A stretch of DNA of 38,138 nucleotides from Bacteroidales bacterium. GTDB taxonomy: Bacteria > Bacteroidota > Bacteroidia > Bacteroidales > WRLA01. A program made the position numbers and the translations under genes. This document shows positions 6,839 to 22,310 of this stretch, in pieces. Numbering within the stretch: the first letter of the stretch is position 1; each line of letters opens with the position of its first letter. The notes beneath the pieces were generated by a model. The model saw nothing but the letters and a program-made list of their open reading frames with translations, ran no database searches and had not been told where the DNA came from. The DNA lies in NCBI GenBank assembly GCA_031254805.1, contig JAIRTP010000107.1, positions 1 to 38,138 on the forward strand. Reading direction: 5' to 3'.

Positions 6839-8224
6839 CTATTTGTGTACTTTTTTGATGAACTCTTCAACTTCTGGAACGCCGCCTTGGTAGACGAGAT
6901 AGCCGTTATACGGTTCGCGTTCTGTAATTTCATCATTGACAGGCGTAAGCATTAATTTTTTCACCTCTTCGGGATCGTGCGTTTGTCCTAAAGCCCACCC
7001 CAGTTTGATAAAAGCCACTTCAGGGAGCATATTTCCGGCAGGAATAATCCCTTTTGCCATCATATCGCGTCCGGTATCATAAACGAACATGTGAACGTAT
7101 CCCCAAATGGTTTGCAAGGTCATATATTGATGAACGCCAGATTTTTGCGCTCTTTCAATAGCCGGATACATCTCTTTGTTAACGTGTCCTAATCCGGTTC
7201 CAACCCAAACGACGCCTTTATAACCTTGTTCGACAATGGCGTCCAAAACGCCCGGTTTCATTCCCGGATAATAATACAGCATGGTTACTCGATCGTCGAA
7301 AGCAGGAATAATCTTCACATTTCTATCTTGACGACGAGGGTTGTATTGCTCTTTGATATGCGTAACTCCTTTTCTGGTAATACTTGCAATGGGCGTGTCG
7401 CCAATTGTTCGGAAAGTAGAACGATAGGAAGAATGCATTTTACGTACGCGCGTTCCTTTGTGCAGCAATCCGTATTCGTCGGAAGTAGGACCGAACATAC
7501 AAACCAAAACTTCTGCAATATCGCCATGTCCGGCAGCAGTCATTGCATGCATCAAATTGAGCGCTGCATCGGAACTGGGGCGGTCGGAAGAGCGTTGAGA
7601 ACCAACTAAAACGACAGGAACGGGTAAATTTTGACACATAAAAGTCAAAGCGGCTCCCGTATGATGCAAAGTATCGGTTCCGTGTCCGATAACAATCCCC
7701 TCGATACCGTTTTCAATCTCTTTTCCGATCTGTTTGGCTAAGGCGATATATTGCGAAGGCCCCATATTTTCAGAAAAAACGGCAAATATTTTCTCCGTAT
7801 CCAAATTGCAGATTTCAGCCAATTCGGGGACGGCTCCATATAATTCTCCCGGAGAAAATGCCGGAATAACGGCTCCCGTTCTGTAATCCAAACGAGAAGC
7901 AATCGTTCCGCCCGTTCCCAATAACTTCACATGCGGAAGGCCTTCCGTATATGGAAATTCTTTCTCAGGAACTTTATAATTTGCTTTTTTATAGCCAGTT
8001 TCTTTCATGCCGGTAATGGTGCGGATATCTATTCCAACATTATATCCTGTAGGTATTTTCAAAACAATATGAAAATGGTCGTCGTTTTCCGCGCGGGGTA
8101 ATACCGTTCCATTAAAATTACCGCGCGTAGTTTCGACCTCCGCCGTTCCCCAAACGCGTACGTTATATTTCTTTAGCGTTCCGAGCGCTTCGCCTTTATA
8201 TCCTTGAAAAAAATCTTCGTTCAT
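6839..8224 (-). CDS. gatD: Glu-tRNA(Gln) amidotransferase subunit D, archaeal type (GatD)
   Basis: GatD is the glutaminase half of GatDE, which turns Glu-tRNA(Gln) into Gln-tRNA(Gln). It has 461 residues, the GatD length, and not the roughly 330 of a plain asparaginase. Residues 1-90 form the N-terminal beta-barrel extension (TGYNVGID motif) and residues 97-435 the asparaginase-like domain. Catalytic threonine motifs are GTGGTIAS (Thr104/Thr107) and HGTDT (Thr183-Asp184), and a lysine follows in RVRK262. The segment VGSQRSSDRPSSDAALNL is typical of archaeal GatD. The gene begins 42 nt after the gatE stop, in the same order and strand, so both subunits are produced together. The family is recalled as archaeal, which makes its presence in this Bacteroidales context unusual. 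The domain layout argues against a simple asparaginase, and ansA is separately present at 21297. Confidence 0.93.
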   Translation of the reverse strand: MNEDFFQGYKGEALGTLKKYNVRVWGTAEVETTRGNFNGTVLPRAENDDHFHIVLKIPTGYNVGIDIRTITGMKETGYKKANYKVPEKEFPYTEGLPHVKLLGTGGTIASRLDYRTGAVIPAFSPGELYGAVPELAEICNLDTEKIFAVFSENMGPSQYIALAKQIGKEIENGIEGIVIGHGTDTLHHTGAALTFMCQNLPVPVVLVGSQRSSDRPSSDAALNLMHAMTAAGHGDIAEVLVCMFGPTSDEYGLLHKGTRVRKMHSSYRSTFRTIGDTPIASITRKGVTHIKEQYNPRRQDRNVKIIPAFDDRVTMLYYYPGMKPGVLDAIVEQGYKGVVWVGTGLGHVNKEMYPAIERAQKSGVHQYMTLQTIWGYVHMFVYDTGRDMMAKGIIPAGNMLPEVAFIKLGWALGQTHDPEEVKKLMLTPVNDEITEREPYNGYLVYQGGVPEVEEFIKKVHK

Positions 8225-8266
8225 TCTTCTTGCTTTTTTAGTTGTTGTTTTTTTTAAAACAGTTTG

Positions 8267-10222
8267 TTAAATCTTTTTTGACAATTCGGTTAAATCAATA
8301 TTTCCTAAGCTAACGCCCTTGAGCGCCCCCATGATGCTGTTGATTTTGTCGTGAGCGTTCGCGCCTTTTTTTGCAGAAATAAATTTTTCTTTCAACAACT
8401 TGATTCTGCTAATGATCTCCTCTTTTGAGATCTTTTTATATTTCATAATCGTCAAAATAGATTCAAAATCCATTTGAGGATTCAAGAACATTTGCTCAGT
8501 CATTTTAGGAGCGATGGCATAATCGATATTTCGATCTTTCAAGAAGGCAAATAATTCATATAAACGATGAATATCGAAAGGAATAGCTCCATATTTTCCA
8601 TGTAAATATTTGAGTTTGTGACCAAAGAAAACGCCGATAAATTTTGGATTGATATCTAAGTTCTCCATGATCTCCTTCATTAAGGGGTAATAATTTTTTG
8701 AAAAAATATAACTGAAGGTATCTTCCGGAATGCCCCAAATGACTAATTGACCGTATCTTTCTGAAAGATCTTCGGGAATATTTTTGCGCAATTTTTCGAT
8801 ATGCGCATCTTCCAAAGGAATCGGAACGGAATCCGTATCGGGATACATCCGGTCGGCTCCCGGCAATACGCGCTCAAAAATCGTCGTCCCATCTTCAAAA
8901 CTTTTACGCGTCTCTTGCGGAACGCCGTCAAAAGTCATCAAAGCACGTTCTTCGATCACATCCAAAGCCATTGGAATATCTCTTTCAGGTCCCCAAAAAA
9001 GTATTTGAGCGTCTTCTTCTTTTGCATTCAATTGACGCGCGATCTTTTTCCAGCCGGCGTCGTCTAATAACGATTCTAAATCTTCCGAACAAGTCATATT
9101 AGGTTTTTCAATACAAGCTATGACTTTCAATCTGTTGATAAACTCATCATAGAACGGTTTGCCGGGTTGTGTGAAAAATGAAAGTAGATTTTTGAAATGC
9201 GGCAGATTGATCGCGTATATTTTACAGCCGTTTTCCACAGCTTTTCGGATCGCATCTGAAACATTCGAAAATTGTGTATGATTTAATTCAACATGATTCG
9301 CTTTCCATTGCTCTTTTTTACAACGTTTTAATAACTCCTCCCGAATATAGAGCAACGCCCATTGACGAAACGCCTCGTTATGAGAAAGTTCAGGAATCCA
9401 TTTGGTGTGCGCAACGCCTTTTATTTCGACTCTGGTACCGCCTTTACAACTTACGTTCACATCTTCGCGTCCCGCTCCGATTCCCGTTCTTACTTTCCCC
9501 GTGCTTCTGTTGAGAAAACGAATATGATCGCATACTTCTTTTACTTCGTCGGGATTTCTCATTTCCGGCGAAGTAACCGTTTCGATCAACGGCATTCCAA
9601 GCCTATCGGTGCGATAAATACGCGTATGCCCGATGTCGGATATTTCACGGCAGGAATCTTCCTCAATGCTTAATTGAATAAGATGAATTTTTCTGTTATT
9701 TTTCAAAGTAAGCTCGCCGTCAATTCCAATAATGGCGGTTCTCTGAAATCCGGTAGGAATAGAACCGTCCAAATATTGTTTACGTGTTATATGAACCTCG
9801 CCGACGATCTTTAGTTTAGAAAGCAGCGAAATTTCAATGGAAATATCCAACGCTTCGCGATCAATAGGAAAAGGAGGCGTATCATCGACGTCATAAGTAC
9901 ATGCCGTATTGTTAGCAATGCGATAAATGATCTCTTTTTTCGTTTTAAACTCCATCAACGCCGTTCCGTCATATTCGCCCAATTCAGAGAGCGTAGGACG
10001 CATGTGGCGTATCAATTCAGCGTCGTATTCGTCCGGTTTTTGAAAAATTCCCGCCGGACAGTTACAAAAGAGTTTCTTTTTAGTCAAAAGTTGTTGATGC
10101 ACTTCGAGCCCCGACATAAAACCAATTCGGTCATAATCGGCCTGCGTCGCCTCTTTACGGTTTACATAGCCAATGACGTTTTTGCTCGATTCGTAATTCT
10201 TTAAAGCGTTATTCGTACTCAC
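8267..10222 (-). CDS. gatE: Glu-tRNA(Gln) amidotransferase subunit E, archaeal type (GatE)
   Basis: GatE binds Glu-tRNA(Gln), phosphorylates the glutamate with ATP and accepts ammonia from GatD. The GatB-like core begins with IGFMSGLEVHQQL, followed by the zinc-site-like KLFCNCP and the kinase segment around EEDSCREISD. The central GVPQETRKSF...TTIFERVLPGADRMYPDTD region is the AspRS-like (GAD) insertion that distinguishes GatE from GatB. A helical tRNA-binding tail of the YqeY type (ANAHDKINSIMGALKG) closes the protein. The frame extends to a TTG at 10249, but a GTG at 10222 (Met-Ser-Thr-Asn-Asn) is the better start, giving 651 residues. GatE is usually about 620-640 residues, against about 480 for GatB. 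It is the first gene of a two-gene operon with gatD. Confidence 0.93.
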   Translation of the reverse strand: MSTNNALKNYESSKNVIGYVNRKEATQADYDRIGFMSGLEVHQQLLTKKKLFCNCPAGIFQKPDEYDAELIRHMRPTLSELGEYDGTALMEFKTKKEIIYRIANNTACTYDVDDTPPFPIDREALDISIEISLLSKLKIVGEVHITRKQYLDGSIPTGFQRTAIIGIDGELTLKNNRKIHLIQLSIEEDSCREISDIGHTRIYRTDRLGMPLIETVTSPEMRNPDEVKEVCDHIRFLNRSTGKVRTGIGAGREDVNVSCKGGTRVEIKGVAHTKWIPELSHNEAFRQWALLYIREELLKRCKKEQWKANHVELNHTQFSNVSDAIRKAVENGCKIYAINLPHFKNLLSFFTQPGKPFYDEFINRLKVIACIEKPNMTCSEDLESLLDDAGWKKIARQLNAKEEDAQILFWGPERDIPMALDVIEERALMTFDGVPQETRKSFEDGTTIFERVLPGADRMYPDTDSVPIPLEDAHIEKLRKNIPEDLSERYGQLVIWGIPEDTFSYIFSKNYYPLMKEIMENLDINPKFIGVFFGHKLKYLHGKYGAIPFDIHRLYELFAFLKDRNIDYAIAPKMTEQMFLNPQMDFESILTIMKYKKISKEEIISRIKLLKEKFISAKKGANAHDKINSIMGALKGVSLGNIDLTELSKKI

Positions 10223-10287
10223 GTATCTTTTATTTATATTGTTTATCAAAAAAGTTATATTCTATAACCGCTTATTTTTTAAGGCCT

Positions 10288-10295
10288 CAAAAGTA
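10288..10295 (-). promoter_or_regulatory. Candidate gatE-gatD promoter, -7 element TACTTTTG
   Basis: TACTTTTG on the minus strand fits TAnnTTTG and lies about 65 nt before the preferred GTG start of gatE. Its presence suggests that the GatDE operon is transcribed by the host sigma factor, which would mean it has adapted to a Bacteroidetes promoter. Confidence 0.45.
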
Positions 10296-21107: not shown

Positions 21108-21196
<89 letters not shown>

Positions 21197-21296: not shown

Positions 21297-22310
21297 TTAC
21301 TCCAAAACAGTCATTTCTCCCCTTAATGAGGCGGATAACAATTCCAACGTCTTTTCCTGATCATATTCCTGCCCTAATAAAAACATCAACTTGGTAATGC
21401 CCGATTCAGCGGTAATATCGTGTCCTCGCGCAATGCCTTCCATGTCTAAACTCGCTTTATATTTTCCATGCGATACGCCTCCCATAATACATTGAGAAAC
21501 ATTATAAAAGATAATTCCTTTTTCGATAGCTTGCTTCAATTCATCTTTAAACCAAGCTACAGTAGGAGCATTTCCGTTACCATAGGTTTGAAGTACGACG
21601 CCTTGAAGGTTTTCCATATTAAAAAAATCCCGAATCATTTTCTGCGTAATACCTGGAAAAAGCCTCAAAACATTGATATTGGCGTTGAACTTATAATGAA
21701 CTTTTAACGCTTCCTGACTACGTGGAGCAAAATACCTTTTATTATATTTGATATGTACGCCTACATTTGCTAATGAAGGATAACTTCCGGAAAGAAACGC
21801 GTCAAAATTTTCAGCGGTAAGTTTAGTCGTCCTATTTCCTCTAAACAGTTTACTGTCAAAATAGAGACATACTTCCGGTACCAATCCTTCCGATGCAATG
21901 ACAATCGAAGTGATAAAATTTTCCCTACCGTCGGTACGAAGGCTGTTGACAGGAAGTTGAGAACCGGTAATCACTACGGGTTTATTGAGATTTTCCAGCA
22001 TAAAACTCAACGCCGAAGCGGTATACGACATAGTATCTGTTCCATGCAAAACGACAAAGCCGTCGTAATCGTTATAATTTTTCTCAATAATACCGGCTAT
22101 TTCAACCCAATTTTCAAGCATAACGTCGGAACTGTCAATAATTTGTTTGGCGCTGATATAATCAATACGACTCGGATATTCTTTCAAAACAGGAATACGC
22201 TCGTAAATATTTTCAAAATCGATCGGTTCTAACTTATGCGTTTCGAGATTACTGATCATCCCGATCGTCCCCCCTGTATATATGACTAAAATGGCGTTTT
22301 TCTTATCCAT
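21297..22310 (-). CDS. ansA: Type I L-asparaginase
   Basis: This cytoplasmic enzyme hydrolyses asparagine to aspartate and ammonia. It has 337 residues, the normal type I length, with no signal peptide. The catalytic threonine motifs are VIYTGGTIGM (Thr12/Thr15) and LHGTDTMSYTASAL, followed by GSQLPVNSLRTDGRENF, typical of AnsA. It lacks the N-terminal barrel of GatD at 6839 and is therefore a separate asparaginase. A TAACTTTG element lies about 65 nt upstream of the ATG. tRNA-Ser follows about 100 nt downstream on the same strand. Confidence 0.95.
   Translation of the reverse strand: MDKKNAILVIYTGGTIGMISNLETHKLEPIDFENIYERIPVLKEYPSRIDYISAKQIIDSSDVMLENWVEIAGIIEKNYNDYDGFVVLHGTDTMSYTASALSFMLENLNKPVVITGSQLPVNSLRTDGRENFITSIVIASEGLVPEVCLYFDSKLFRGNRTTKLTAENFDAFLSGSYPSLANVGVHIKYNKRYFAPRSQEALKVHYKFNANINVLRLFPGITQKMIRDFFNMENLQGVVLQTYGNGNAPTVAWFKDELKQAIEKGIIFYNVSQCIMGGVSHGKYKASLDMEGIARGHDITAESGITKLMFLLGQEYDQEKTLELLSASLRGEMTVLE

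Follow-up and report, generated by a model that had tools for sequence, protein, structure and literature searches.

We find that a GatDE pair, with intact catalytic residues and an operon arrangement, is deeply conserved in Bacteroidota, where it coexists with GlnRS. The pair was examined in a contig of a Bacteroidales genome (GCA_031254805.1, lineage WRLA01; JAIRTP010000107.1), positions 1 to 38,138 of which are referred to here as the window. With modest confidence, we interpret the two proteins as a genuine Glu-tRNA(Gln) amidotransferase that would operate in parallel with GlnRS, as a second route to Gln-tRNA or as a rescue system.

The gatDE locus

Both genes lie on the minus strand in operon order, gatE first and gatD following after a gap of 42 bases. 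The gatD gene (6839..8224) encodes 461 aa, comprising the GatD N-terminal barrel and a type I asparaginase-like amidase. The product of gatE (8267..10249 or 8267..10222), about 650-660 aa long, consists of a kinase/transamidase subunit, an AspRS-like insertion, and a tRNA-binding tail. No ATG lies upstream of the conserved GatE core; translation starts at a non-ATG codon, either the TTG at 10249 or the in-frame GTG at 10222 that the first-pass annotation had given as the upper limit of the pair.

Comparison with curated protein models confirmed the pair as GatD and GatE of the GatDE family. GatD scores 490 bits against the NCBIfam equivalog gatD_arch (cut-off 324), and the Pfam domain GatD_N (PF18195) is found above its cut-off, N-terminal to both asparaginase domains. 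GatE passes two equivalog models, PRK04028 (466 bits, cut-off 456) and NCBIfam gatE_arch (391 bits, cut-off 319.6). For both proteins the closest PDB chains are archaeal, from Pyrococcus abyssi (1zq1) and Methanothermobacter thermautotrophicus (2d6f). The T-T-D-K catalytic set of GatD is kept in the alignment to 2d6f_A; in Methanothermobacter numbering, the sites read off the 2d6f alignments (GatD T101, T177, D178, and K254 and GatE H15) are all conserved. Across 29 sequences the catalytic core is invariant, and GatD of the window is 54-87% identical to full-length GatD of other Bacteroidota. Public annotation models already call such proteins GatD and GatE, and the genes are therefore not unknown.

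Since GatD has an asparaginase fold and GatE a GatB core, the two genes might instead be a misannotated asparaginase (AnsA) and GatB. Domain content and model cut-offs lead us to reject this reading, to which we assign a negligible probability. GatB models score at most 122 bits on GatE, far below GatB cut-offs of about 315 or more (338 for the best-scoring model), whereas GatE scores above the GatE cut-offs. The GatD_N domain, the AspRS-like insertion, and the length of GatE, which the first-pass annotation had named as a distinguishing feature from GatB and which stands as evidence for its assignment, also argue against misannotation. Moreover, the window contains a separate, real type I asparaginase at 21297-22310 (minus strand), 28% identical to GatD; a tRNA-Ser(GGA) gene (21108-21196) adjoins it.

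An AlphaFold2 model of GatE, built from 29 homologues (mean pLDDT 79.6), most closely resembles the archaeal GatE structures 2d6f (Z 29.9) and 1zq1 (Z 26.8), with GatB chains below both (Z about 22-25). Because model residues 293-428 match the insertion domain of AspRS (Z about 9-12), the predicted AspRS-like insertion is judged to be real. The insertion, together with the N-terminal barrel and archaeal-like catalytic motifs of GatD, had led the first-pass annotation to GatDE rather than AnsA plus GatB, and these observations were all borne out. It had also described an operon behind a Bacteroidetes-type promoter. The operon stands, but the promoter is a weak prediction: TACTTTTG (10288-10295, minus strand), upstream of gatE, fits the Bacteroidetes -7 element, although no -33 TTG was seen at the usual spacing from it and the pattern TAnnTTTG is common by chance, with 56 occurrences in the window where 44 would be expected.

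Distribution and descent of GatDE in Bacteroidota

The gatE_arch model identified proteins above its cut-off in 30 of 394 Bacteroidota genomes, encompassing several families of other classes and the genome of the window. Within a 246-genome sample drawn evenly across Bacteroidales (each at least 95% complete), 99 genomes from at least 49 family-level groups encode a GatE-type protein; GatB is present in only 5. A scan of named genomes yielded more than 500 relatives; the 80 retained are mostly Bacteroidales, among them the isolates Marinifilum flexuosum DSM 21950 and Labilibaculum euxinus A4. GatD lies downstream of GatE on the same strand at 71 of these 80 named loci, usually after a gap of less than 60 bases. 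Where the two are not adjacent, the genomes checked encode GatD at another site, with the exception of one partial 1.6 Mb genome. No third neighboring gene is conserved across the 80 named loci, and no virus contigs with matches were found. One genome from the same genus as the window (G002) lacks both GatE and GatD.

In a GatE tree of 60 rows (IQ-TREE, LG+C20), two deep clades separate Bacteroidales from most sequences of other classes, with the two archaeal sequences, both from the PDB, outside. Long branches were flagged, and two sequences depart from this pattern: L081, labeled as belonging to another class, falls among Bacteroidales, and the divergent L079 falls outside. GatE of the window groups with that of the Bacteroidales bin Kf353_bin79 (77% identity), then joins G001, a member of the same genus, and then other Bacteroidales genomes. 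Pairwise GatE distances correlate with those of GluRS, both overall (r 0.91, 16 taxa) and within the order (r 0.74, 12 taxa; Mantel p ≤ 0.0005), indicating long vertical retention under selection. The gatDE genes thus show the pattern of an old Bacteroidota pair kept vertically, with patchy losses.

These results bear on the earlier suggestion that this lineage had acquired an archaeal route. The family name and the closest solved structures are archaeal, which would fit a recent horizontal transfer of GatDE from archaea into the lineage of the window. However, GatE reaches at least 49 family-level groups of Bacteroidales and extends to further classes, archaea lie outside the two deep Bacteroidota clades, and GatE distances follow those of GluRS. 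Distribution, tree, and distance correlation thus largely reject such a transfer, which we regard as very improbable, and an acquisition special to this lineage is contradicted by the position of its GatE inside a broad, old Bacteroidota clade. The tree, with its two archaeal sequences, speaks neither for nor against an archaeal origin of the Bacteroidota GatE clade as a whole, nor for a particular direction or date of any transfer; the ancestor of the phylum may have received GatDE by an ancient transfer. A GatE-like stretch lacking an annotated gene was also seen on a 987 kb plasmid of the haloarchaeon Natrinema thermotolerans (CP031304; L266, 5001-5966). It matches half of the query, possibly as a broken or split gene, and was left out of the tree.

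GlnRS in genomes that encode GatDE

Full-length GlnRS is encoded by 77 of the 79 GatE-positive genomes tested from the order, by 26 of 29 from other classes, and by about 45 of 48 named GatE-positive genomes. In one single-contig genome (G608), gatE, glnS, and the GluRS gene gltX share the same contig, so neither contamination nor binning accounts for this coexistence.

The two exceptions in the order are the genome of the window and G511. The former assembly (96.8% complete, 127 contigs) contains one GluRS and one detected tRNA-Gln (UUG). Searches of it for glnS and gatB, in line with a check proposed in the first-pass annotation, revealed neither: no GlnRS or GlnRS fragment was found with the catalytic domain, the full protein, or the glnS model, and the sole PF02934 match is GatE itself, leaving no GatB. 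The idea of a GatDE route beside GlnRS holds for the group, although GlnRS is not in this particular assembly. This gene complement could reflect a species that has lost GlnRS and makes Gln-tRNA only through GluRS and GatDE, as archaea do. We consider this quite improbable: GlnRS is retained in two same-genus genomes (G001 and G002) and in Kf353_bin79, the nearest relative; its absence from two of 79 genomes matches the rate expected from genome incompleteness; and tRNA-Gln and GluRS are not remodeled (see below). Given that 77 of the 79 GatE-positive genomes carry GlnRS, its absence here is most simply an assembly gap. The neighbors of glnS vary among close relatives (mgtE/porP, parAB/priA, dnaA, and others; L045, L046, L199-L204), so its position is not syntenic and a gap in the assembly that contains the window could not be placed. 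G511 (99% complete) encodes GatE without a GlnRS match; here too GlnRS may have been lost or may fall in a gap of the assembly, and it is present in the same-genus sibling, G586.

Other combinations were also observed. Three genomes of the order (G011, G016, and G565) have GatB and no detected GlnRS, and it would seem that GatCAB, not GatDE, replaces GlnRS in this order. In another class, G317 and G344 (both 99% complete) encode adjoining GatE and GatD together with GluRS and a protein resembling GatB, with no detected GlnRS. In these genomes Gln-tRNA synthesis may be divided between two amidotransferases.

Predicted role beside GlnRS

By homology with the archaeal system, GatD, through its asparaginase-like T-T-D-K site, would release ammonia from Gln or Asn and pass it to GatE. 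GatE would then use ATP to activate the Glu side chain on mischarged Glu-tRNA(Gln) and amidate it, yielding Gln-tRNA(Gln). Next to GlnRS, this reaction may provide a second route or mend Glu-tRNA(Gln) made by GluRS. Such a parallel role is the most likely one because the hosts have retained GlnRS as well, and their GluRS looks ordinary. The Bacteroidota proteins resemble archaeal GatDE (2d6f, 1zq1) in having both subunits, the same domain order and catalytic residues, and the AspRS-like insertion of GatE; they differ in that their GatE sequences form a separate deep clade and their hosts retain GlnRS. With bacterial GatCAB they have in common the chemistry and the catalytic core of GatB and GatE, but the amide is supplied by the asparaginase-like GatD rather than the amidase-type GatA.

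Archaeal GatDE is reported to recognize the D-loop and the A1:U72 pair of tRNA-Gln, which in archaea also carries C12:G23 and A73 (PMC9499178). The tRNA-Gln sequences recovered from the order instead have U1-A72 and G12:C23, with A73 nearly always present; A73 is common to archaea, GatDE-positive genomes of the order, and their GatDE-negative relatives. The 1-72 pair, singled out for inspection in the first-pass annotation, is thus of the bacterial type. No consistent tRNA-Gln difference separates GatDE-positive from GatDE-negative genomes of the order, and an archaeal-type remodeled tRNA-Gln was not found in the former. A non-discriminating GluRS had likewise been suggested as a feature to look for. 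Among 33 GatDE-positive and 16 GatDE-negative sequences, no GluRS column tracks GatDE (highest mutual information 0.314; 95% permutation level 0.354), and nothing points to a dedicated enzyme of this kind. Arg358 (Thermus numbering) is invariant, even in genomes without GlnRS, and is therefore not diagnostic. As far as their sequences indicate, neither tRNA-Gln nor GluRS is visibly remodeled.

The identity of the tRNA-Gln determinants counts against the amidation proposal, and redundancy with GlnRS leaves the benefit of GatDE unexplained. A serious rival, though one we consider unlikely, is that bacterial GatDE has shifted to a different job, acting on another mischarged tRNA or on a substrate other than Glu-tRNA(Gln). 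Long coexistence with GlnRS and host tRNA-Gln without A1:U72 and C12:G23 would fit such a shift. In contrast, the core and catalytic residues match those of archaeal enzymes, both proteins pass equivalog cut-offs, and no conserved neighboring gene suggests another pathway. Amidotransferases are kept despite direct charging elsewhere: Deinococcus, Thermus, and Bdellovibrio have GatCAB beside GlnRS and AsnRS (PMC4206432). There, however, GatCAB works with a non-discriminating AspRS to make Asn on its tRNA; the only known substrate of GatDE is Glu-tRNA(Gln). Amidation of Glu-tRNA(Gln) in parallel with GlnRS is the role we continue to favor. More tentatively, we speculate that about 40% of Bacteroidales combine GlnRS with an ancient GatDE adapted to U1-A72 tRNA-Gln and acting as a fidelity rescue or a nitrogen-responsive route, with GlnRS lost in some members, perhaps including the species of the window, and GatDE left there as the sole route.

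The GatDE and GlnRS pattern in Bacteroidota appears to be unremarked in the open literature searched; among the open-access papers naming GatDE, none of those read describes it from bacteria. A 2022 review describes GatDE as now restricted to archaea (PMC9499178). Of the 14 Bacteroidetes in a 2014 survey covering 366 bacterial genomes, 12 were assigned to the group with GlnRS but no GatCAB, and GatDE goes unmentioned there (PMC3927822). A further paper states that no bacterium was known to have both Gln-tRNA routes (PMC4206432). Surveys class Bacteroidetes as GlnRS-only because only GatCAB was looked for. At the gene level, widespread bacterial GatDE beside GlnRS contradicts all three statements. 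It also bears on the argument that co-evolution of GatDE with archaeal tRNA-Gln kept GlnRS out of archaea. The cultured species M. flexuosum and L. euxinus make the proposed role testable. GatDE-positive Bacteroidales appear to encode two routes to Gln-tRNA where one is normally enough.
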